A DNA stretch of 43,787 nt from an uncultured Synechococcus sp. (GTDB taxonomy: Bacteria > Cyanobacteriota > Cyanobacteriia > PCC-6307 > Cyanobiaceae). The first letter of the stretch is position 1; each line of letters starts with the position of its first letter. The notes under the pieces are model-generated. The model did not search any database, was not told where the DNA came from, and worked only from the letters and a program-made list of their open reading frames with translations. Both the position numbers and the translations under genes were made by a program. This document shows, piece by piece, positions 2,468 to 32,297 of this stretch. Location: assembly GCA_913057985.1 (NCBI GenBank), contig CAJXPL010000021.1:1-43787 (forward strand). Direction: 5' to 3'.

Positions 2468-3376
2468 ATGGGTTGGTCCGCGGCTGACATCCCGAACCAG
2501 AAGGGCCGTATCGCCCTGATCACTGGAGCCAACAGCGGCCTGGGCCTCGAAACCGCGCGCGCCTTGAAACGCTGCGGGGCCACGGTGTTGCTGGCGTGCC
2601 GCAGCCCCCGCAAAGCCGAGAGGGCCAAGCAGGAGTTGCTGCAGGAGCGCGATGGGGGAGCGGTGGATCTGGTGGACCTGGATCTGGCGGACCTGACCAG
2701 CGTGCAGAAGGCGGCGGCCACCGTCGGGGAGCGCTACGGCTGCCTTGATCTGCTGATCAACAACGCTGGCGTGATGGCACCGCCGCGCCGCACCACCGCC
2801 CAGGGGCATGAACTGCAGTTCGGTGTGAATCACCTGGGGCACATGGCCCTGACCCAGGCCCTGCTGCCGCTGCTGCAGAACCGGTCCGATCCCCGCGTGG
2901 TGACGGTGACCTCCGGAGCGCAGTACTTCGGCAAGATCCGCTGGGACGACCCCAGCTGGAGCAAGGGCTACGACCGCTATGGGGCCTATGGCCAAAGCAA
3001 ACTCGCCAACGTGATGTTTGCCCTTGAGCTGGATGCACGCCTGCGCCAGCAGGGCAGCCCCATCCGCTCCCTGGCCGCCCATCCCGGCATCGCGCGCACA
3101 GACCTGCAACCCACCGCGATCGCCAGCGTCGGCAACCGCTTCGAGGCCCTTGCCTACCGGCTGATGGATCCCCTGTTCCAAAGCGCCGGCATGGGTGCCC
3201 TGCCCCAACTGCATGCCGCCACCGCGGCGACTGCTCAGGGTGGCGAGCACTACGGCCCTGAGCAGTTCGGCGGCTTGCGGGGTGCACCGGCGCTCTGCCG
3301 TGTGGCGCCAGCAGCGAGCCAACCTGCCGAACGGCAGCGGCTCTGGAGCTTGAGCGAGCAGCTGATCAGTGGCTGA
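2468..3376 (+). CDS. Short-chain dehydrogenase/reductase (SDR)
   Basis: A 302-residue classical SDR. The cofactor motif TGANSGLG is at residues 19-26, with LLINNAGVMAPP in the core and a catalytic Tyr-Lys pair in YGAYGQSK preceded by Ser in TVTSGAQYFG. The arginines after the glycine motif (ACRSPRKAERAK) suggest NADP(H). The overall pattern (TGANSGLGLETAR, GVNHLGHMALT) resembles the protochlorophyllide reductase/retinol dehydrogenase-like branch. It lacks features specific to true light-dependent Por, so the substrate is unknown. Confidence 0.88.
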   Translation: MGWSAADIPNQKGRIALITGANSGLGLETARALKRCGATVLLACRSPRKAERAKQELLQERDGGAVDLVDLDLADLTSVQKAAATVGERYGCLDLLINNAGVMAPPRRTTAQGHELQFGVNHLGHMALTQALLPLLQNRSDPRVVTVTSGAQYFGKIRWDDPSWSKGYDRYGAYGQSKLANVMFALELDARLRQQGSPIRSLAAHPGIARTDLQPTAIASVGNRFEALAYRLMDPLFQSAGMGALPQLHAATAATAQGGEHYGPEQFGGLRGAPALCRVAPAASQPAERQRLWSLSEQLISG

Positions 3377-3426
3377 ATCCCACGCTGTGATGTTGAGTGG
3401 CCGCTGGTTGGTCGCCCTTTAAAACC

Positions 3427-3837
3427 ATGGCCACTCGCCGCCCTTCCACCCAGATCAATTCCCGCCAGAAGGTGTTGCTGGCGAGCCTGCAGGCCTGTGG
3501 TGATGAGATGAGCGGTCAGCAGCTCCACCGCAGCCTGGAACCCGACCAGGCCATGGGCTTGGCCACGGTGTATCGCAATCTGCGCCAGCTTCAGCAACGG
3601 GGCCTGGTGCGCTGCCGCCACCTGCCCAATGGGGAAGCGCTTTATGCGCCGCTGGAGCGGGATCGCCACCACCTCACCTGCGTCGATTGCGGCAAGACCC
3701 AGGCGCTCGACCACTGCCCGATTCACGACCTGGAAGTGCCCGAAGACGGCCGCAAAGGCTTCGATCTCTTGTTTCACACGCTTGAATTCTTTGGTCTCTG
3801 CAGCGACTGCCGCGATCGGCAGCAAAGCCCGTCATGA
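3427..3837 (+). CDS. zur: Fur-family metalloregulator, probably Zur
   Basis: A 136-residue Fur-family repressor when started at the ATG of MATRRPS. An upstream in-frame GTG would add ten residues without family similarity. The winged-helix reading head (LATVYRNLRQLQQRGLV) is followed by a metal-binding half with HHLTCVDC (Cys85, Cys88) and LCSDC (Cys125, Cys128), the structural zinc cysteines of the family. The short length and two CxxC pairs fit the cyanobacterial Zur group better than Fur or PerR, but the metal is inferred. The stop overlaps the next gene by ATGA. A palindrome of Fur/Zur type lies before amiF near 29482-29501, a possible target in this window. Confidence 0.8.
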   Translation: MATRRPSTQINSRQKVLLASLQACGDEMSGQQLHRSLEPDQAMGLATVYRNLRQLQQRGLVRCRHLPNGEALYAPLERDRHHLTCVDCGKTQALDHCPIHDLEVPEDGRKGFDLLFHTLEFFGLCSDCRDRQQSPS

Positions 3838-4571
3838 CCCTGGCCGCCACCTACTACGGAGCCAATGGCTGGTTGCTCGAATTCGATGATCTCCGCGTTC
3901 TGGTGGATCCCTGGCTGCACGGCAGCCTGAGCTTCCCCCCAGGGGAGTGGCTGCTGAAGGGGGAGCTGCCCTGTGAGCGCAAGGCCCCCGAGAAGCTGAA
4001 CCTGCTGTTGCTCACCCAGGGGCTCGCGGACCATGCCCATCCGGAGACCTTGGCGCTCCTCCCCAAGGACCTGCCCGTCATTGGATCGGTGGCTGCTGCA
4101 CGGGTGGTGGATCGCCTGGGCTTCACCAGCGTGAAAGCCCTCTCCCCCGGAGAGCGCACCAACCATCAGAGCCTGCAGGTGCGGGCCAGCGCCGGTGCAC
4201 CGGTGCCGATGGTGGAAAACGGTTATCTGCTCAAGCATCCGGCCGGATCGCTCTATCTCGAACCCCACGGTTTTCTCGATCCAGCGCTGGAGCCGCAACC
4301 GCTGGATGCCGTGATCACGCCGATGGTGGATCTAGGCCTTCCAGCACTTGGGGCTTTTGTCAAAGGCTGCTCCGTGGTGCCGCAACTGGTGGAACGCTTC
4401 CAACCGAGCACGGTGGTCGCCAGCACCTCCGGCGGCGACGTGCGCTTTGGCGGCGCCTTGAGTCGGGCCCTGCAGATGAAAGGATCCGTTGCCTGCACTG
4501 GAGCCCAGCTGCCGGCCAGCAGCTCCTGGACCGATCCAAGACCTGGGGAACGACTGCTGCTGAAAAACTGA
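3834..4571 (+). CDS. MBL-fold protein with a degenerate metal-binding motif
   Basis: A 245-residue protein of the UlaG-like metallo-beta-lactamase fold group: YYGANGWLLEFDDLRVLVDPWLHG at the start, a VIGSVAAARVVDRLGF segment, and late D/H-containing loops. The expected THxHxDH motif reads TQGLADHAHP here, so both histidines of the HxH pair are replaced while the DH pair remains. It may bind one metal, bind differently, or be catalytically inactive. It is translationally coupled to the Fur-family regulator by a 4-nt overlap, which hints at a role in metal homeostasis. Confidence 0.75.
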   Translation: MTLAATYYGANGWLLEFDDLRVLVDPWLHGSLSFPPGEWLLKGELPCERKAPEKLNLLLLTQGLADHAHPETLALLPKDLPVIGSVAAARVVDRLGFTSVKALSPGERTNHQSLQVRASAGAPVPMVENGYLLKHPAGSLYLEPHGFLDPALEPQPLDAVITPMVDLGLPALGAFVKGCSVVPQLVERFQPSTVVASTSGGDVRFGGALSRALQMKGSVACTGAQLPASSSWTDPRPGERLLLKN

Positions 4572-4609
4572 TTTTTCGGATTAAGCTTTGTAACAACAGC
4601 CTGAGTTCG

Positions 4610-4846
4610 ATGAAATCCACGCAAGCCAGCGATTCCTGGTTCCAGGGCGTCGCTGCCCGCGACATCCACATGGAGCAGCTCAAAAAGGCCGAACGCTTCA
4701 ACGGTCGTGCCGCCATGGTCGGCATCGTGATCGGAATCATCACCGAGGGGCTCACCGGTGCCGGCATCGTTCACCAGATCGGGCTGGGTCCCCTGGTGGA
4801 TGGCTATGCCGCCTGCCGCACCCAATTCCTGCCCTTCTGCTTCTGA
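4610..4846 (+). CDS. hli: High-light-inducible protein (Hli/Scp), single-helix CAB-like
   Basis: A 78-residue protein with the chlorophyll-binding ExxNGRxAMxG signature at residues 28-38 (ERFNGRAAMVG) leading into one hydrophobic helix (IVIGIITEGLTGAGI). Hli proteins sit in the thylakoid membrane, bind chlorophyll and carotenoid, and protect newly made or damaged photosystems under excess light. The polar N-terminus and a C-terminal tail with a cysteine near its end (PFCF) extend past the core. The AT-rich stretch just upstream probably holds its own promoter. I cannot assign it to a specific hli subclass. Confidence 0.88.
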   Translation: MKSTQASDSWFQGVAARDIHMEQLKKAERFNGRAAMVGIVIGIITEGLTGAGIVHQIGLGPLVDGYAACRTQFLPFCF

Positions 4847-4853
4847 TTCGGAA

Positions 4854-4867
4854 GGGGGACCACCCCC
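4854..4867 (+). terminator. GC-rich hairpin after hli
   Basis: GGGGG-ACCA-CCCCC lies just past the Hli stop codon. It could stop or stabilise the short hli mRNA, but no T-tract follows, so intrinsic termination is only a possibility. Confidence 0.35.
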
Positions 4868-4903
4868 CGATGACGAGAATGGTGCGATTCACGTTCGAAT
4901 CGA

Positions 4904-5209
4904 ATGGCTGCTGACAAGGAACTGCTGAAGGAAGTGGCCCTGGAGCTGTGGAACACCACCAAAAAGCTCCGTCCCGGTCTGCCCAAAGCTCCTCGCGCCC
5001 AGCTGGTCTTGAAGGCTCTGCTCACCATCGGTGACATGAGCGATCAGCTGGAAGCCGCCATGGTGCTTGGGGTGATTGAGGCGCAGGAACCCGACGATGG
5101 GCCCGGGCAGGGAGAAGCGGCCGGCGAAGACAAGACGGTGTCTGAAACCGATGCCAAGACCGAGCGGGAGACCCCCAGGGTTGTGCGCAAGCGCTCCAGC
5201 AGCCGCTGA
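4904..5209 (+). CDS. Conserved hypothetical protein with acidic/basic tail
   Basis: A 101-residue protein. Residues 1-60 form a compact helical domain (KELLKEVALELWNTTKKL, RAQLVLKALLTIGDMSDQLEAAMVLG). The rest is a low-complexity charged tail ending VVRKRSSSR. I recognise no family. GC-rich codon use and the helical pattern support coding. A small inverted repeat (CGATTC/GAATCG) lies directly before the ATG and could affect initiation. Confidence 0.7.
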   Translation: MAADKELLKEVALELWNTTKKLRPGLPKAPRAQLVLKALLTIGDMSDQLEAAMVLGVIEAQEPDDGPGQGEAAGEDKTVSETDAKTERETPRVVRKRSSSR

Positions 5210-5233
5210 TCAAGACCTCCAGATGACACGGAC

Positions 5234-5341
5234 ATGCAGCCCATTCCCCCTTCAGAGGGTGCTAGATGGGCTGTCTTCCAAAAAGGAACGCGGCGCAGTC
5301 TGAGTAACTTTTTAAGCCCCGCACCACAGCCCGAACCTTGA
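5234..5341 (+). CDS. Candidate micro-ORF, 35 aa
   Basis: ATG ORF encoding a proline-framed polar peptide that starts MQPIPPSEG and ends PAPQPEP. Its stop shares TTGA with the start of the next micro-ORF, the same coupling geometry seen for real gene pairs in this window. No homologue is known to me and no strong ribosome-binding site is evident. It is a candidate only. Confidence 0.25.
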   Translation: MQPIPPSEGARWAVFQKGTRRSLSNFLSPAPQPEP

Positions 5342-5433
5342 TTCTGTTGATCGTCACCGCCACCTTTATTGGTCTGCTTTGGCTCACGCAAAGCCTGATC
5401 AGACGTGGCATGGATGACGGCAGCAACGGCTGA
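5338..5433 (+). CDS. Candidate single-helix membrane microprotein, 31 aa
   Basis: TTG-initiated ORF encoding one strongly hydrophobic helix (LILLIVTATFIGLLWL) followed by TQSLIRR, a positively charged stop-transfer segment, and GMDDGSNG. This is the architecture of small thylakoid or plasma-membrane subunits, but I cannot match it to a named Psb, Psa or Pet peptide. No ATG or GTG start is available in frame after the upstream stop at 5314, which weakens the case. Confidence 0.3.
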   Translation: MILLIVTATFIGLLWLTQSLIRRGMDDGSNG

Positions 5434-5566
5434 GGCGCCTTCATTCCGCTGACGGGACAAACCTCGTCAGCGATGCCTGGCCTCCCTCGGGGCCTGCTCT
5501 GCTTCGGCTTTCAGGAAACGGCGATGCTGAGATGAGGCATAGCCGCTGAGGTCAATTCTGCTGGCA

Positions 5567-5947
5567 TTGCTGCCAGCCTTTCGCCACTCCCTCGGGGGAG
5601 TGCTGGATCTTCGGTTCATGGAATCGAGTTATCGGTTCTCGCGCAGTGGGCCTTCAATCAGGCTCTTTGGCGTTGATCCACCTTTGCACACCTACCCTTC
5701 CGACGCGCCCAGCGGATGGGTAATTGCAGCTACGGCGAGCCATGCGAATCGGACCGATACTCCGCCCAACGGCAAACGGCTTGTGACTCCTGAAGAGCAG
5801 TACGTGCAATGCATGGACGCTGCCTACGCCGCCGCTGACAGGGAGACCTGCCTGAAAATGATGCGAAGGGCAGAAGTCGGCCTGCGCGGTGAATTCAGAG
5901 CCCAGCCAACAGGCGATGGCCCAAGAAAGCGAGCGTTGGCGATCTGA
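5567..5947 (+). CDS. Hypothetical protein; C-terminal part more convincing
   Basis: An ORF of up to 126 residues. The first half (HSLGGVLDLRFMESSYRFSRSGPSI) has low coding character. The second half (TPEEQYVQCMDAAYAAADRETCLKMMRRAEVGL) reads like a genuine amphipathic helical region with two cysteines. The true start may therefore be internal, for example the ATG at 5620. It could be a decayed gene. No family recognised. Confidence 0.35.
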   Translation: MLPAFRHSLGGVLDLRFMESSYRFSRSGPSIRLFGVDPPLHTYPSDAPSGWVIAATASHANRTDTPPNGKRLVTPEEQYVQCMDAAYAAADRETCLKMMRRAEVGLRGEFRAQPTGDGPRKRALAI

Positions 5948-5989
5948 AGCAAAACCTCAGGAAACCCAGTGCTGCACTGCGTTTTGAGA

Positions 5990-6061
5990 TGGGCGATACT
6001 GGGATCGAACCAGTGACAATCTCCTTGTAAGGGAGGTGCTCTACCGCTGAGCTAATCGCCC
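5990..6061 (-). tRNA. tRNA-Val (anticodon TAC)
   Basis: On the minus strand the acceptor arms GGGCGAT and ATCGCCC pair over 7 bp. The D-arm TAGCTCAGCGGTAGAGC, the anticodon stem CCTCC/GGAGG enclosing loop CTTACAA (anticodon TAC), and the T-arm with GGTTCGATCC are all present. About 72 nt, CCA not encoded. Confidence 0.95.
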
Positions 6062-6118
6062 CACTGGGCAGATTCTGCCTTAACGCGTCAGCTTGGGGGC
6101 GCACAGCACTCCGAAGGC

Positions 6119-6601
6119 TTGGCAACGGGTCACCGCCACGACCAAAGCATCTGGATCCTGAGCCTCCCGCTCGGGATTGCCGTTGGATTGGTGCTGGGAT
6201 GGGCTGCAGCCTTGATCGCCGCAGCGAGCTGTCTGGTAGGAGGACTGTGGCTGTCCCCCGATCTTGATACCCGCTCCAATGCGCTGCGGCGCTGGGGCCC
6301 CCTCGGCTTCCTCTGGTGGCCCTATCGCCACCTCATCCCCCATCGCTCGCTCTGGTCCCATGGTCCGCTGCTGGGAACAACCGCGCGCCTGGCGGTGCTG
6401 CTCACCTGGTGCCTGATCGTGAGCATGGCGGTTCCAGCACTCTCACCAGCGGTGCTGCTGACGACGCTCCAGCAACTGATGCATCAGCACCCACGGGAGT
6501 TCATCGCTCTGCTTGTGGGTTTGGAGGGCAGTGCCTGGATCCACCTGATCCTCGATGGCGACCCCTGGCCCCAGGAATGGTCGAAGAAACGACAGCGATG
6601 A
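6119..6601 (+). CDS. DUF2227-type putative metal-binding membrane protein
   Basis: A 160-residue protein beginning with a TTG. The N-terminal GHRHDQS, the internal LSPDLDTRS, and PHRSLWSHGPLLG form the histidine/aspartate set typical of the cyanobacterial DUF2227 'metal-binding' family. A late LEGSAWIHLILDGD adds another His and Asp. Hydrophobic segments at about residues 12-45 and 85-115 suggest membrane association. Function is not established; the fold resembles the YdjM-like membrane hydrolase group. The TTG start is chosen because the conserved HRHD motif follows at once. Confidence 0.75.
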   Translation: MATGHRHDQSIWILSLPLGIAVGLVLGWAAALIAAASCLVGGLWLSPDLDTRSNALRRWGPLGFLWWPYRHLIPHRSLWSHGPLLGTTARLAVLLTWCLIVSMAVPALSPAVLLTTLQQLMHQHPREFIALLVGLEGSAWIHLILDGDPWPQEWSKKRQR

Positions 6602-6634
6602 GAAGGTGGGCGTTGCCCCAGTTGTTGCCCCGGC

Positions 6635-7468
6635 ATGGCCAATGCTCCTTCTGACGCCATCCAGCGACTGATCGATGTTGTGGCCCAACTCAGGGATCCA
6701 ACAACGGGCTGTCCCTGGGATCTGGAGCAGACCCATGCCTCGCTGGTGCCCTACGTGCTGGAAGAGGCCCACGAAGTGGCCGATGCGATCCGCCAGGGCA
6801 GCGATGCCCATATGAAGGAGGAGCTGGGGGATCTGCTGCTGCAGGTGGTGCTGCATGCCCAGATCGCTCGGGAGCAGCAGCGCTTTGATCTGGATGGGAT
6901 TGCCGATGGCATCAGCGACAAACTGATCCGCCGTCACCCCCATGTGTTCGGCGATGCCGCCGCCAGCACCAGTGACGAGGTGCGACGCAGTTGGGAGGCC
7001 ATCAAGCTCCAGGAGCAGGCCGAGGCCCTGGCGGGCTCCTCCAGCCCCCTCAGCGACCGGCTCAGAGCCAAGGTGCGGGGCCTGCCGGCCCTGGCTGGGG
7101 CCATGACCATTTCCAAGAAAGCGGCCAAAGCCGGCTTCGAGTGGGATGACATGGCCGGCGTCTGGGAGAAGGTCCATGAGGAGCTGGACGAACTCAAGGA
7201 GGCGGTGGCCAGCGGCGACAAAGGCCATGCCCAGGAGGAACTGGGCGATCTGCTGTTCACCCTGGTGAATGTGGCCCGTTGGTGCAGCATCGAACCCGAG
7301 GAGGGTCTCGCCGGCACGAATCAACGCTTCCTCGACCGCTTCTCCCGCGTTGAAGCTGCCCTGGAAGGGGATCTGCAGGGCCGCAGCATCAACGAATTGG
7401 AAACCCTGTGGAAACAGGCCAAAGCAGCGATCCGAGCAGAACACTCGCCCACCTCTGGATCCGATTAG
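6635..7468 (+). CDS. mazG: MazG nucleoside triphosphate pyrophosphohydrolase
   Basis: A 277-residue protein with two MazG repeats. The first has CPWDLEQTHASLVPYVLEEAHEVADAI and KEELGDLLLQVVLHAQIA, the EExxE/ExxD magnesium ligands of the all-alpha NTP-PPase fold. The second has WEKVHEELDELKEAV and QEELGDLLFTLVNVARW. MazG converts (d)NTPs to NMPs plus pyrophosphate, a house-cleaning and stringent-response role. Length fits the family. Its end overlaps the convergent ArfB-like gene by 4 bp. Confidence 0.93.
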   Translation: MANAPSDAIQRLIDVVAQLRDPTTGCPWDLEQTHASLVPYVLEEAHEVADAIRQGSDAHMKEELGDLLLQVVLHAQIAREQQRFDLDGIADGISDKLIRRHPHVFGDAAASTSDEVRRSWEAIKLQEQAEALAGSSSPLSDRLRAKVRGLPALAGAMTISKKAAKAGFEWDDMAGVWEKVHEELDELKEAVASGDKGHAQEELGDLLFTLVNVARWCSIEPEEGLAGTNQRFLDRFSRVEAALEGDLQGRSINELETLWKQAKAAIRAEHSPTSGSD

Positions 7469-7896
7469 TCGTCCAGGGAGGGCCGACTGCGCCGTTGACG
7501 CTTGAGGTCACCACGCTTTTTCTTCGTGTCCAAGCGCCGCTTCACCGCACCACGACCTGGCCGGGTAGCTTTACGGGTACGCGGTGCTGGCTGCAAGCCC
7601 TCCCGCAGCAGCTCCCCCATGCGATGCAGCGCCTTCTGACGGTTCTGCAATTGGGAGCGTTCTTCTGCGACCACAACCCGCAGGCAGCCCTCCACCAACC
7701 GGGCCTGGAAGTGCTCCAGCAATCGGGCGCGACGAAATGGACCCAGACAGGAGCAGTTCGCCAGATCCAGAAGCAATTCCACACGGGAATCGGTGGTGTT
7801 GACCCCCTGCCCACCGGGGCCGGATGAGCGGCTGAACCGCCAGCGCAGCTCCCTGGACGGAATGGTCAACCGCTCGTTCACCACCAGGTCTTGCAC
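7465..7896 (-). CDS. arfB: Peptidyl-tRNA hydrolase ArfB-like (GGQ domain)
   Basis: A 143-residue protein with the catalytic GGQ motif in SRSSGPGGQGVNTTDSRVEL, the domain shared with class I release factors but lacking their codon-recognition domains. The basic tail (RKATRPGRGAVKRRLDTKKKRGDLKRQRR) is the part that enters the empty mRNA channel in ArfB/YaeJ. The protein should release peptides from stalled ribosomes. It is convergent with mazG. Confidence 0.9.
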   Translation of the reverse strand: MQDLVVNERLTIPSRELRWRFSRSSGPGGQGVNTTDSRVELLLDLANCSCLGPFRRARLLEHFQARLVEGCLRVVVAEERSQLQNRQKALHRMGELLREGLQPAPRTRKATRPGRGAVKRRLDTKKKRGDLKRQRRSRPSLDD

Positions 7897-7992
7897 CAGC
7901 CATCTCCTGGCTCAAGAACAACAGGATGCTCCCACCAGGTTGATGCTTCGAAGAAGGAACACCTGCACCAACCCTGAGCCCTATCGATAAAA

Positions 7993-8050
7993 CCAAAGGC
8001 CTTGATCTGACGAAAAAGGCTTTGGAGCTGCCCTCTTCCACAGCAGCTCC
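7993..8050 (+). promoter_or_regulatory. Two overlapping hairpins in the speE leader
   Basis: CCAAAGgCCTT pairs with AAGGCTTTGG (one bulged G) at 7993-8025. Directly after it GGAGCTGC pairs perfectly with GCAGCTCC at 8024-8050. The two share two bases and cannot both form completely. They could be a terminator/attenuator pair, but no T-tract follows and nothing identifies a ligand. Confidence 0.3.
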
Positions 8051-8142
8051 CCAAACGAGCACATTCGACCTTCACATCTTGCGTTCGTCAATCCCAAAAG
8101 CACTACATCTGGTGTTTGGGAACAGGCCCACCAGGTCCTTAG

Positions 8143-9889
<1,747 letters not shown>

Positions 9890-28780: not shown

Positions 28781-28911
28781 CAGAGTTTGACCATTGACTG
28801 TCTTGGCATGGCGTTCACAGGGCTACACATACGCCGAAAAAAAACTTTTTTTAATGGTTGGGCCGCGATGTAGACAGAAGGGAATCTCGGTCTATCGGGC
28901 ATCGCAACGTC

Positions 28912-29391
28912 ATGCCAAAAGAAGTCGCCACAACGCCTCGGATCCTGCTGGCCACAGCCGTGGTCTTACTCTGCCAAGCCTGCAACGGAGCTCCCACAGA
29001 GACACGACTGCACGAAGCCAAGCCCGGCGACGCTCTTGTGATCGACGGCGAAACGACCATCACACTGACCAAGAAATTTCGAGCCGGAACCCCGAACGGG
29101 CTCTTCGATGGTGGGGTGATGGTCAGCAGCCCAGGAGCCGAGGAAAGGACAGTCGAAGTGAATGCCGTGTGCAGCATGCCGGACCTGCCCAACTGGCCCG
29201 ACTACGACAACATCTACGGCCGCTGGCTGGAATCAGGCGAAGCCCCTGGAGCGAAAGGCGGTGACACCGACTGGCAACTGCTGATCTACTTCGACGGCAC
29301 CACACAAAACAAAGGCGGAGAAGACGCACCGCCTTGGGCGCAACGCCTGGCCCAAAACGCCTGCCGAAAAGGAGAGTTCAGCGACAACTGA
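28912..29391 (+). CDS. Putative lipoprotein, function unknown
   Basis: A 159-residue protein with an N-terminal export signal (PRILLATAVVLLCQAC) and a lipidation-like cysteine at residue 24. The mature part carries EAKPGDALVIDGETTITLTKKFRAGTPNGLF, likely beta strands, and two further cysteines (VCSMPDLPNW, NACRKGEF) that could form a disulfide outside the cytoplasm. No family recognised. The ATG chosen directly precedes the signal peptide. It is divergent from the DUF4278 gene. Confidence 0.65.
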   Translation: MPKEVATTPRILLATAVVLLCQACNGAPTETRLHEAKPGDALVIDGETTITLTKKFRAGTPNGLFDGGVMVSSPGAEERTVEVNAVCSMPDLPNWPDYDNIYGRWLESGEAPGAKGGDTDWQLLIYFDGTTQNKGGEDAPPWAQRLAQNACRKGEFSDN

Positions 29392-29481
29392 GCACTTACA
29401 GGTATCAATCGCGACTCTTTTACGGCTTAAAGGCTGATAACTGCAGCGAGAGATACAACGACAGGAAAACGGTGAAAGCAA

Positions 29482-29501
29482 GATAAGAATGATTCTCATT
29501 C
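29482..29501. promoter_or_regulatory. Fur/Zur-type palindromic box before amiF
   Basis: Contains the perfect inverted repeat GAATGA-TTC-TCATTC. The reverse strand reads TGAGAAT-C-ATTCTTA, close to the 7-1-7 Fur/Zur box TGATAAT-N-ATTATCA. It ends eight bases before the amiF ATG, so a bound repressor would cover the ribosome-binding region or early transcribed DNA. Which family member binds is inference. Confidence 0.55.
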
Positions 29502-29508
29502 CTGCTTT

Positions 29509-30558
29509 ATGGCCAGCACCGGCAGCGTCAGCTCCTGGGACGAATCACTGCTCGTCGCGATGATTCAGTATCCGGTCCCAGTGATCAAAGGACCCGAAGA
29601 TATCCAGACCCAAGTCGATCAAATCTGCAAAGCTGTTGCGACGACTAAGGCTGGCTATCCAGAAGCCGATCTGATCGTGATGCCGGAGTACTCGACTCAG
29701 GGGCTCAACACATCGATCTGGACATACGATGAAATGCTCCTGACCATCGACTCTCCAGAAATTGGCCGCTTCAAGCAGGCGTGCAAAGAGAACGATGTTT
29801 GGGGCGTATTTTCATTAATGGAGGTCAATGACGACCCGAGCAAACCTCCCTTCAATTCAGCCATCATCATTAATTCGGATGGTGAAATAGCACTGCATTA
29901 CCGAAAACTGCAACCCTGGGTCCCCATCGAGCCGTGGTCACCCGGCAACTACGGCATGCCTGTCTGTGATGGACCCAAAGGCTCCAAGCTCGCAGTCTGC
30001 ATCTGCCATGACGGCATGTTCCCAGAGCTCGCTCGAGAAGCTGCATACAAGGGAGCGAACGTCTACATCCGAATCTCGGGTTATTCAACCCAGGTGAATG
30101 ACCAGTGGATTTGGACCAACCGAACCAATGCCTGGCAGAACCTGATGTACACCATTTCGGTCAACCTAGCTGGTTACGATGGTGTCTTCTACTACTTCGG
30201 CGAAGGAACAGTTTGCAACTACGACGGCAACGTTATTCAGCAAGGTCATCGGAACCCCTGGGAGATCGTTACAGCAGAACTATTCCCACGTCTTGTTGAC
30301 AAGGCAAGGGAAAATTGGGCACTTGAAAACAACATCTTCAACTTGGGATGCCGTGCCTACGTAGGCAAGCCTGGGGGCGAAAAAGAGAACTACCTTACCT
30401 GGGTTGAAGACCTAGCCAAAGGCGAATACAAACTTCCTTGGGACAGCAGCATTCGGGTCCGCGACGGATGGAAGTATTACCCCGATGGCGTGAAACTGGG
30501 ACCGATGCCCAAAAACGGAACAACAGCTGCCAAACCAGCTGAGTCAGTCACGGTATAA
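29509..30558 (+). CDS. amiF: Formamidase, nitrilase superfamily (AmiF)
   Basis: A 349-residue carbon-nitrogen hydrolase. The catalytic triad is E60 (MPEYSTQG), K133 ([13 protein letters not shown]) and C166 (CICHDGM), the same positions as I recall for Helicobacter AmiF. Long stretches such as [18 protein letters not shown] are near-identical to that enzyme from memory. It hydrolyses formamide to formate and ammonia in the cytoplasm, without a metal cofactor. The ~15-residue C-terminal Ala/Thr/Pro tail is an extra. It precedes the unrelated formamidase fmdA and has its own hairpin terminator and a Fur/Zur-like box. Confidence 0.93.
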
Positions 30559-30623: not shown

Positions 30624-30637
30624 GTGTAATCAAATAC
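30624..30637 (+). promoter_or_regulatory. NtcA-like box upstream of fmdA
   Basis: GTGTAATCAAATAC matches GTA-N8-TAC with one change and differs at only two of 14 bases from the urtA box GTGCGATCAAATAC. A -10-like TAGTTC follows after 21 bases (consensus TAN3T). The fmdA ATG is about 100 bp downstream. Confidence 0.5.
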
Positions 30638-30740
30638 CAATATATTTAAACCAAAAAATAGTTCAAGAAAATAAGTATCAGCCACCACATCTCGGCTTTT
30701 TTGTGCTGATTTGAATGTTGGTGGTTGATAGTGTCTTTTC

Positions 30741-31946
30741 ATGCCCGAGACCCTGTTCAAGGTGGATCTCACCAAGCCCATGGACCAGCAGGAGATGCCT
30801 GGTCACAACAGATGGCACCCCGACATTCCTGCTGTTGCATCAGTCAATCCAGGCGACGTCTTCCGCATCGAATGCAAAGACTGGACCGATGGACAGATCA
30901 AAGACAACGACGACCCGCAAGATATTGCTGACGTCAACCTGGAAGTTGTTCACGTCCTGAGCGGCCCGATCTGGGTGAACGGTGCCCAACCGGGCGACAT
31001 CCTCGTTGTGGACATCCTCGAAGTGGGTGCCCTCCAGGGTGATGAATGGGGTTTCACGGGAATTTTTGCCAAAGAAAATGGCGGCGGTTTCCTCACCGAT
31101 CATTTCCCCAAAGCGGCCAAAGCCATCTGGGATCTGGAGGGGGTTTACACCACATCACGGCACATCCCCGGGGTGCGGTTTGCGGGAATCACGCACCCAG
31201 GCTTGATCGGCTGTGCCCCTTCCATGGAGCTGCTCAACGAGTGGAACCGCAGGGAAACAGAACTGGTCAACACAGCACCGGATCGCCGGACCTACGGCGC
31301 TGGCCTTTCCGGCAGTGAGCCTGTGCTGGCCGCCCTGCCCAACCCCAACAGCGCCATTCTTGGCAATGTGGCAGCGGGTGATTTCGATCGCATCGCCAAT
31401 GAAGCAGCCCGCACCGTTCCACCCCGGGAGCATGGCGGCAACTGCGACATCAAGAACCTCACCAAAGGCACACGGATCTATTTCCCTGTGTATGTGGAAG
31501 GGGCAAAACTCTCCATGGGAGACATCCACTTCTCCCAGGGTGATGGAGAAATCTCCTTCTGCGGTGCCATCGAGATGTCGGGCTACCTCGACCTGCATGT
31601 TGATCTGATCAAAGGTGGCATGGCCAAGTACGGGATGGTCAATCCCATGTTCAAGACCAGCCCCGTGGAGCCTCACTACAGCGACTACCTCGTCTTCGAG
31701 GGAATTTCTGTGGATGAATTCGAAGGCAAGCAGTACTACATGGATGTGCATATTGCTTACCGCCGAGCCTGCTTGAACGCTATTGAGTACCTGAAGAAAT
31801 TCGGCTACACCGGCGAACAGGCCTATCTGCTGTTGAGTTGTGCTCCTGTGGAAGGCAGGATCAGCGGCATTGTCGACATCCCCAATGCCTGCTGCACCCT
31901 GGCGTTGCCGACATCCATCTTTGACAAGGACATTCTTCCTTGCTGA
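30741..31946 (+). CDS. fmdA: Formamidase, acetamidase/formamidase family (FmdA)
   Basis: A 401-residue protein of the FmdA/AmdA family, unrelated to AmiF. Visible are KPMDQQEMPGHNRWHPDIPAVASVNPGD, IECKDWTDGQIKDNDDP, a histidine-bearing centre (HVLSGPIWVNGAQPGDILVVDI) and HPGLIGCAPSMELLNEWNRRE. Length and order match the ~407-residue FmdA of methylotrophs. It releases ammonia from formamide; family structures contain a metal. The zinc-ribbon FmdB gene follows, as in methylotroph fmd clusters, whose transporter is of the Urt type. Confidence 0.92.
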   Translation: MPETLFKVDLTKPMDQQEMPGHNRWHPDIPAVASVNPGDVFRIECKDWTDGQIKDNDDPQDIADVNLEVVHVLSGPIWVNGAQPGDILVVDILEVGALQGDEWGFTGIFAKENGGGFLTDHFPKAAKAIWDLEGVYTTSRHIPGVRFAGITHPGLIGCAPSMELLNEWNRRETELVNTAPDRRTYGAGLSGSEPVLAALPNPNSAILGNVAAGDFDRIANEAARTVPPREHGGNCDIKNLTKGTRIYFPVYVEGAKLSMGDIHFSQGDGEISFCGAIEMSGYLDLHVDLIKGGMAKYGMVNPMFKTSPVEPHYSDYLVFEGISVDEFEGKQYYMDVHIAYRRACLNAIEYLKKFGYTGEQAYLLLSCAPVEGRISGIVDIPNACCTLALPTSIFDKDILPC

Positions 31947-32021: not shown

Positions 32022-32297
32022 ATGCCAGTTTACGAATTCGCCTGTTCCACCGACGAATGCCCAACCTATGAAGTGTGGAGAGCGATCTCTGATCGCGACG
32101 CCAGCACAGAATGTCCGGAATGCGGCAGTCAGGGACGGCGACTGTTCAATCCACCGATGATGCTGACCGGTGGTTTGCGTTTGAAAGCCGAACGGAAGGA
32201 ACCTGAACTCGTCACCAAGAAAATTCGGGAGCCTTCCAGCAAACCACGGCTACAAGAAAGCACCACCCGACCGTGGATGCTGAATCGCGGTTGCTGA
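32022..32297 (+). CDS. fmdB: FmdB-type zinc-ribbon regulatory protein
   Basis: A 91-residue protein starting MPVYEFAC. The zinc ribbon is made by an N-terminal CSTDEC and a CPECGSQGRR. The rest is basic and probably disordered (SSKPRLQESTTRPW), with a final cysteine. FmdB proteins accompany fmdA and are thought to regulate the cluster, but the mechanism is not established. It lies 75 bp after fmdA and before a strong terminator, so it shares that transcript. Confidence 0.85.
   Translation: MPVYEFACSTDECPTYEVWRAISDRDASTECPECGSQGRRLFNPPMMLTGGLRLKAERKEPELVTKKIREPSSKPRLQESTTRPWMLNRGC

Follow-up and report, generated by a model that had tools for sequence, protein, structure and literature searches.

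A Zur-type box and NtcA-type sites before amiF in Synechococcus: a candidate zinc-independent spare formamidase

The formamidase pair and the palindrome before amiF

The window, meaning the whole stretch of 43,787 nucleotides that was analysed, carries two formamidase genes side by side on its forward strand. The first, amiF (29509..30558), encodes a formamidase of the nitrilase superfamily (NCBIfam PRK13287, 600.9 bits against a cut-off of 406) whose closest named relatives are from Synechococcus. The triad residues Glu60, Lys133 and Cys166 are present, and the closest solved structures are the formamidases 5g3o and 2dyu (E 2e-145 for the latter); we take this enzyme to need no metal. The second gene, fmdA (30741..31946), encodes an FmdA/AmdA-family formamidase (NCBIfam NF045496, 669.1 bits against a cut-off of 500) and belongs to a different Pfam family (FmdA_AmdA, PF03069, versus CN_hydrolase for AmiF). 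It is followed on the same strand by a gene for a zinc-ribbon protein (32022..32297; PF09723, Zn_ribbon_8), presumably of the FmdB type, and then by urtEDCBA. A close solved relative of FmdA is PDB 2wkn (E 5e-166), which a passage of PMC4602302 describes as related to a "bi-zinc" formamidase, and the zinc need attributed to FmdA below is that inferred from its family by way of this one passage on relatives. At the other end of the pair, a small ORF at 28858-29391 has no Pfam match and looks lipoprotein-like by eye; such a gene directly precedes amiF in the majority of the marine relatives examined, in which a small lipoprotein-like gene is usually followed by amiF, fmdA, the zinc-ribbon gene and the urt genes.

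The segment just upstream of amiF, GATAAGAATGATTCTCATTC (29482-29501), contains the exact inverted repeat AATGA-N3-TCATT at 29488-29500. A preliminary description of this DNA had noted a near-consensus Fur/Zur palindrome eight bases before the start codon, and this spacing is correct, the repeat ending at 29500 and the ATG lying at 29509. The 7-1-7 core of the box is TAAGAATGATTCTCA (29484-29498), which differs from TGATAATnATTATCA at three positions. Within 44 kb, AATGANNNTCATT with at most one mismatch is expected by chance 0.97 times and the 7-1-7 pattern with at most three mismatches 0.26 times, so that the bare pattern by itself is just modestly unusual.

For this reason a Zur matrix was built from which all amiF sites were excluded. 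It comprises 24 sites from relatives and from the window's own genome, the best site being taken at each locus: 14 are from znuA orthologues of at least 47% identity (the distant matches L153-L168 lie outside the set), and 10 are COG0523-type sites, seven of them immediately before the matched gene and three (G054, G077 and G235) about 1 kb before it. The own-genome member of the COG0523-type group is assigned by a domain match to CobW_C only. With this matrix the predicted Zur-type operator of amiF occupies the 23-bp window AAGATAAGAATGATTCTCATTCC (29480..29502, forward strand) and scores 26.6 bits, whereas no other separate site in the window exceeds 11.1; these scores, together with the conservation described below, bear out the palindrome as first described. 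When the genome itself is left out of the matrix the box retains 26.5 bits, a score reached in none of 3000 shuffles of amiF upstreams, for which 8.2 bits marked the 99% point and the highest score was 21.3.

The box is conserved. Matches of at least 14 bits occur within 150 bp of 29 of the 30 cyanobacterial amiF genes (24 of 25 distinct genomes), and in 25 of these 29 boxed upstreams the best match is directly before the ATG. At L016 and L041 a second box at −149 outscores the one at the start codon, and at L081 and L082, both outside the family, the box is near −105. Among non-cyanobacterial amiF orthologues, drawn from the best 80 of 116 relatives, 0 of 67 reach 14 bits (best 11.4). Shine-Dalgarno (SD)-like sites have the opposite distribution, being found at 2 of the 30 cyanobacterial genes and at 65 of the same 67 non-cyanobacterial ones, and because of this opposition the box is, on comparison of these upstreams, placed where the ribosome-binding site of amiF formerly lay in the Synechococcus lineage. 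All of these counts are raw, and the compared rows share descent. Three loci whose AmiF N-terminus was unmatched (L020, L105 and L021) were dropped from the conservation count. L038, labelled Deltaproteobacteria, was counted as cyanobacterial, its locus being Synechococcus-like. For the shuffle and NtcA geometry tests 21 of the 30 upstreams were used, leaving out L035, L038, L041, L043, L047, L053 and L063, which come from the same contigs as used rows or are near copies of them, as well as L081 and L082. A more distant group of AmiF-like amidases in other cyanobacteria (43-50% identity) has a 7-1-7 box at 11/12 or better in 0 of 19 scanned loci, the set consisting of 22 loci (L206-L228 without L216, a piece of an 89% copy) and the scan covering those up to L225.

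As a separate observation, the L038 contig (UBA6967) resembles marine Synechococcus in its amiF-fmdA order and in its upstream sequence, and is probably a misbinned Synechococcus contig.

Conservation also bears on whether the palindrome could be fortuitous, or could act at the start codon as a hairpin in the RNA. In 44 kb the bare pattern is no rarity; the box takes up the place of an SD site in the expected leader; and the L018 sequence folds well (z −2.62). Against this, five of the six folds are no better than those of shuffled sequences, chance leaves unexplained why 29 of the 30 cyanobacterial amiF genes have the box, and nearly the same sequence is found at znuA and COG0523-type promoters. 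Both candidates were rejected, chance on conservation and the hairpin on its folds, and taken together they are regarded as extremely improbable.

The regulator and the metal

A Fur-family gene had been noted at 3427-3837 on the forward strand, and it is indeed there: the long ORF extends over 3397-3837, with an in-frame ATG at 3427, the start originally given. The best PDB match of its product is 7ne9 (E 4e-66), and it is 74% identical over 128 residues to SynZur of Synechococcus WH8102, with the sensory residues D77, H79, C95 and H115 (numbering from PMC9337993) all kept. Judged by this identity and these residues, the protein is Zur, the zinc-sensing member of the Fur family. As described in passages of PMC9337993, SynZur represses znuABC and activates bmtA, and a box lying over the −10 is associated with repression; the present system resembles it in the sequence and sensory residues of the regulator and in the type of box. 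The experimental Zur regulon of WH8102 has eight genes, and unlike the arrangement proposed here it includes no formamidase named in those passages (PMC9337993), a comparison that covers the regulon rather than the amiF content of WH8102.

The earlier proposal left the metal as zinc or iron. Fur-like sites were collected by pattern because a de novo motif search of 30 iron-gene upstreams gave no credible Fur motif, and the comparison of the two matrices is to that extent partly circular; with each genome left out in turn, Zur scores above Fur in 19 of 20 amiF boxes (the set of 21 without L036), 14 of 14 znuA sites and 10 of 10 COG0523-type sites, but in none of the 19 Fur-like ones. The amiF box of the window gives 26.5 bits for Zur and 15.2 for Fur. 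A less dependent comparison uses the 7-1-7 box itself, which at 10/12 or better is found upstream of 14 of 14 znuA and 7 of 10 COG0523-type genes, as against 3 of 20 futA and 0 of 17 flavodoxin genes. The znuA core of G273, TGAGAATGATTCTTA, is the reverse complement of the window's amiF core apart from the central base. Because Zur outscores Fur at nearly all amiF boxes, zinc is the likely signal at amiF, and of the two metals first put forward iron is the one disfavoured.

Repression by Fur in response to iron, in the manner of amiE of Helicobacter pylori, has some points in its favour. The Fur and Zur boxes of these cyanobacteria have a common AATGA...TCATT outline, a ferritin box (TTTGATAATGACTCTCATTTA) resembles the amiF boxes of freshwater strains, and the L016 box, the one exception in the matrix comparison, is close to a tie (Fur 18.7, Zur 18.1 bits). 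The scores at the other amiF boxes and the distribution of the 7-1-7 box run counter to it, as does the company of amiF in other genomes, where its cluster partners are CobW GTPases, and control by iron is considered improbable. The genome that carries the window (G000; 2.43 Mb in 61 contigs) has three Fur-family genes in all, and conceivably the third product (G000:C7:6014, PerR-like or other) uses the box for, e.g., a peroxide signal. This is less probable still, since the amiF boxes match the znuA and COG0523-type boxes of the same genomes.

With at most one mismatch, 21 matches to the 7-1-7 pattern occur over both strands of this genome, compared with 8 in the control. They include znuA/znuC, the COG0523-type gene, the futA-ferritin intergenic region and amiF, and some have no clear gene nearby. 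One of the matches, TCATAATGATTCTCA (L115; G000:C1:133321-133335; one mismatch), lies near ORFs without a Pfam match and may be a further Zur or Fur target.

The Helicobacter parallel, which had been raised as amidases responding to iron, carries over in part. Passages of PMC9696931 name amiE as repressed by iron-bound Fur, and it is not amiF that is so named there. The likeness is that AmiF belongs to the same enzyme family as AmiE and AmiF of H. pylori and that a Fur-family repressor acts on an ammonia-producing amidase; the difference is that in H. pylori iron-Fur is described at amiE, whereas here a Zur-type box is found at amiF (PMC9696931).

In view of the strength of the box, its conservation and its Zur character, control of amiF by Zur is considered very probable.

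NtcA-type sites and promoter architecture

Class II NtcA promoters have a GTAN8TAC-like site about 22 nt before a −10 element of the form TAN3T. A looser form of this arrangement precedes amiF, where an NtcA-like site, GCAGCGAGAGATAC (29443..29456, forward strand), with GC rather than GT in its first half, is followed 22 nt later by the hexamer CAAGAT (29479..29484, same strand). From its position this hexamer is inferred to be the −10 of amiF; a consensus promoter scan gave no sigma-70 consensus match at the gene. The Zur box abuts this conserved −10-like hexamer, and the hexamer has one base in common with the Zur core. The general geometry, G[T/C]N10AC followed after 21-23 nt by [N]ANNNT, is present in 21 of 21 amiF upstreams, starting between −64 and −68 and preceding the place of the Zur box, and in 1000 shuffles of the set it never occurred more than four times in one 5-nt bin. 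An exact GTN10AC occupies this place in 14 of the 21, the window and its nearest relatives having GC; counted at a single position, it is found in 12 of 19 upstreams (the 21 without L022 and L036), the maximum in shuffled sets being five.

Upstream of fmdA, two NtcA-like sites are found on the forward strand in the window, as they are in its clade: a distal one, GTGTAATCAAATAC (30624..30637), whose GTN10AC recurs at −113 to −120 in 12 of the 13 loci from the genus, and a proximal one, GTATCAGCCACCAC (30675..30688), with GTN10AC at −62 to −75 in 56 of 57 fmdA promoters, L271 being the exception. A gene for NtcA is present. The preliminary description had given fmdA an NtcA-like box instead of the metal-responsive one; the NtcA-like site on fmdA is borne out, and in duplicate, but the exclusivity is not, since all 21 amiF upstreams also have an NtcA-type site. 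Because both promoters carry NtcA-type sites, the proposed division of labour between FmdA for nitrogen limitation and AmiF for metal limitation has been replaced by one in which both genes look nitrogen-gated and amiF appears to be zinc-gated in addition. Activation of amiF by NtcA is likely, if less so than its control by Zur.

A scheme in which amiF responds to both signals can be drawn from these elements. When zinc is sufficient, zinc-bound Zur would occupy the box, which directly adjoins the −10-like element and would extend over the expected start of transcription, and amiF would be off. When zinc is short this block would be lifted, and strong transcription would still require NtcA just upstream, that is, nitrogen shortage. 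AmiF would then do metal-free what FmdA does, converting formamide into formate and ammonium; formamide could thus still be used as a nitrogen source and no zinc would need to be spent on FmdA. Sequence comparison itself supplies the box with its Zur type, its position and its conservation, the geometry of NtcA type and the co-occurrence with fmdA, whereas Zur binding, repression, NtcA activation and the zinc dependence of FmdA enter the scheme as inferred steps. In marine and freshwater Synechococcus-type cyanobacteria, amiF thus resembles a reserve gene brought into use under a joint shortage of nitrogen and zinc, and the scheme as a whole, a zinc-independent spare formamidase needing both shortages, is judged slightly more probable than its alternatives combined. 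A meeting of NtcA and Fur-family regulators on the same promoters has a counterpart in the FUR/NtcA co-regulation of Anabaena PCC 7120, with the difference that the targets described in passages of PMC12282138 are regulators and sigma factors, no formamidase or amidase being mentioned anywhere in that text.

Zur-like boxes are also found upstream of some fmdA genes. At 12 bits or more within 300 bp they occur at 19 of 57 fmdA promoters, a count made by position, such that the owner could be a neighbouring gene. In the controls, 13 of 228 real blocks reach 12 bits, all 13 being the box of amiF itself by place and score, and the same level is reached in 2 of 342 shuffles. These boxes lie at −125 to −217 from the ATG, upstream of the NtcA site where one is present; at L271, which has no NtcA site, the box is at −286. 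Nine of the 19 belong to genomes or loci that also carry amiF (G054, G175, G235, G292, G277, G119, G070, G401 and G629), and ten are in genomes without a whole amiF, many of the latter being weak (12-18 bits, with one poor half). The close relatives of the window are without a Zur-like box at fmdA and have the second NtcA-like site in its stead. At L259 (G629) a perfect 27-bp palindrome (13-1-13), AAATAAGAATGATTATCATTCTTATTT, scoring 26.5 bits for Zur, is positioned 172 bp upstream of fmdA, directly 3′ of the hairpin that comes after amiF; the distal NtcA-like site that 12 genus relatives have is missing there. By likeness to the activation of bmtA in WH8102, it could be that in lineages with an fmdA box zinc-bound Zur activates fmdA as well as repressing amiF. 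Such a reciprocal arrangement is doubtful, and would mean that zinc status picks which formamidase a nitrogen-starved cell makes.

AmiF as a candidate stand-in for FmdA

The distribution of the two genes is consistent with a spare role. Among 300 genomes of the family, fmdA is present in 54 and a near-complete amiF in 17, and all 17 amiF genomes also have fmdA; in one of these (G292) the amiF match is missing its first 29 residues, and in another (G216) fmdA contains three in-frame stops. The genes lie apart in five genomes (G054, G077, G175, G235 and G292), and linkage therefore does not explain their co-occurrence. Outside the family, G401 carries both genes. The counterexample likewise comes from outside the family: in G612, a MAG of 93% completeness and 6% contamination, amiF has a box of 27.1 bits and no fmdA match was found. 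The idea that AmiF takes over the job of FmdA is thus favoured by the 17 family genomes and opposed by G612. Because of the latter the grading of this role, and with it that of the whole scheme, has been lowered slightly, and a stand-in role for AmiF is regarded as rather probable.

Decay at individual loci gives a further view of this relationship. At L201 (G162) and L202 (G112), amiF is reduced to its first 73-74 residues, while the Zur box and the NtcA-like site are kept and fmdA is whole. The converse is seen in the CPC35 MAG, where a remnant of fmdA lies between amiF and urtE (37% identity over 49 residues; E 1e-6 when searched against that stretch alone, the best reversed control for FmdA giving 0.42) and no match to the zinc-ribbon gene was found in the same stretch. 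Here amiF is whole and has kept its NtcA-type site, and its upstream has no Zur box (best −2.5 bits). The G216 locus, with its interrupted fmdA, was considered as a second natural experiment of this kind, its amiF box being weak (16.4-16.7 bits) and the weakest among its close relatives; the box of L037, however, is equally weak (15.6 bits) alongside a whole fmdA, and G216 is therefore suggestive only.

In several other genomes amiF stands near CobW GTPase or WD40 genes. In G054, amiF is the last gene of a one-strand run that includes CobW-type proteins and a phosphoesterase and lies behind a Zur-type box. In both G054 and SM2_3_1 its neighbours are CobW GTPases, a WD40 protein and an FAD oxidoreductase, and Zur-type boxes are present; in G077 it is among CobW and WD40 genes, and in a Leptolyngbya MAG it is near a boxed WD40-type gene. 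Part of these neighbour assignments was made by sequence cluster only. According to passages of PMC10957091 and PMC6103462, the Zur targets of Anabaena include COG0523 genes and paralogues of zinc proteins.

Such neighbourhoods also accommodate a different purpose for Zur control of amiF, namely the supply of ammonium or formate, or the handling of some amide or nitrile that zinc-short cells produce. Consistent with this, the zinc need of FmdA comes from its family, amiF in G612 has a strong box and no fmdA that was found, and the gene stands beside CobW GTPases and the FAD oxidoreductase in G054 and SM2_3_1, some COG0523 proteins being described in part of PMC2770081 as activators of nitrile hydratase, an amide-making enzyme. 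What speaks against it is that amiF without fmdA was not found in the 300 family genomes, the single qualification among the 17 being the fmdA with stops, and that the CPC35 lineage has lost the box where fmdA has decayed at the locus. A purpose of this sort is possible but unlikely, and the reading of AmiF as a stand-in for FmdA is retained.

If this reading is correct, AmiF has both precedents and peculiarities among Zur-repressed, zinc-independent stand-ins, which as listed in passages of PMC6103462 comprise ribosomal protein paralogues, folE2, hemB2, thrS2 and dksA. As in those cases, there is a Zur box at the promoter, AmiF can presumably do the job of a protein from a metal-binding family metal-free, and CobW GTPases adjoin the gene in some genomes. 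The stand-ins covered there are mostly paralogues, while AmiF and FmdA are of different Pfam families, and amiF adds an NtcA-type nitrogen site. Among the portions of the literature seen in a search for formamidase under Zur or zinc limitation, nothing relevant was found, the matches looked at concerning kynurenine formamidase. Zur would then swap one enzyme for an unrelated enzyme of the same reaction, and zinc and nitrogen status would meet at one promoter in ocean cyanobacteria, for which both are scarce. The arrangement would also offer a reason for the two side-by-side formamidases in these genomes, and would tie the zinc economy of marine Synechococcus to its nitrogen economy in a way open to direct test.

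A minor observation concerns the makeup of the clusters described above. At L189 (G054, 2627-9398), L190 (G077) and L082, clusters of CobW/COG0523 GTPase genes and a WD40-repeat protein adjoin amiF and have Zur-type boxes, and those of G054 and L082 additionally contain an FAD oxidoreductase.
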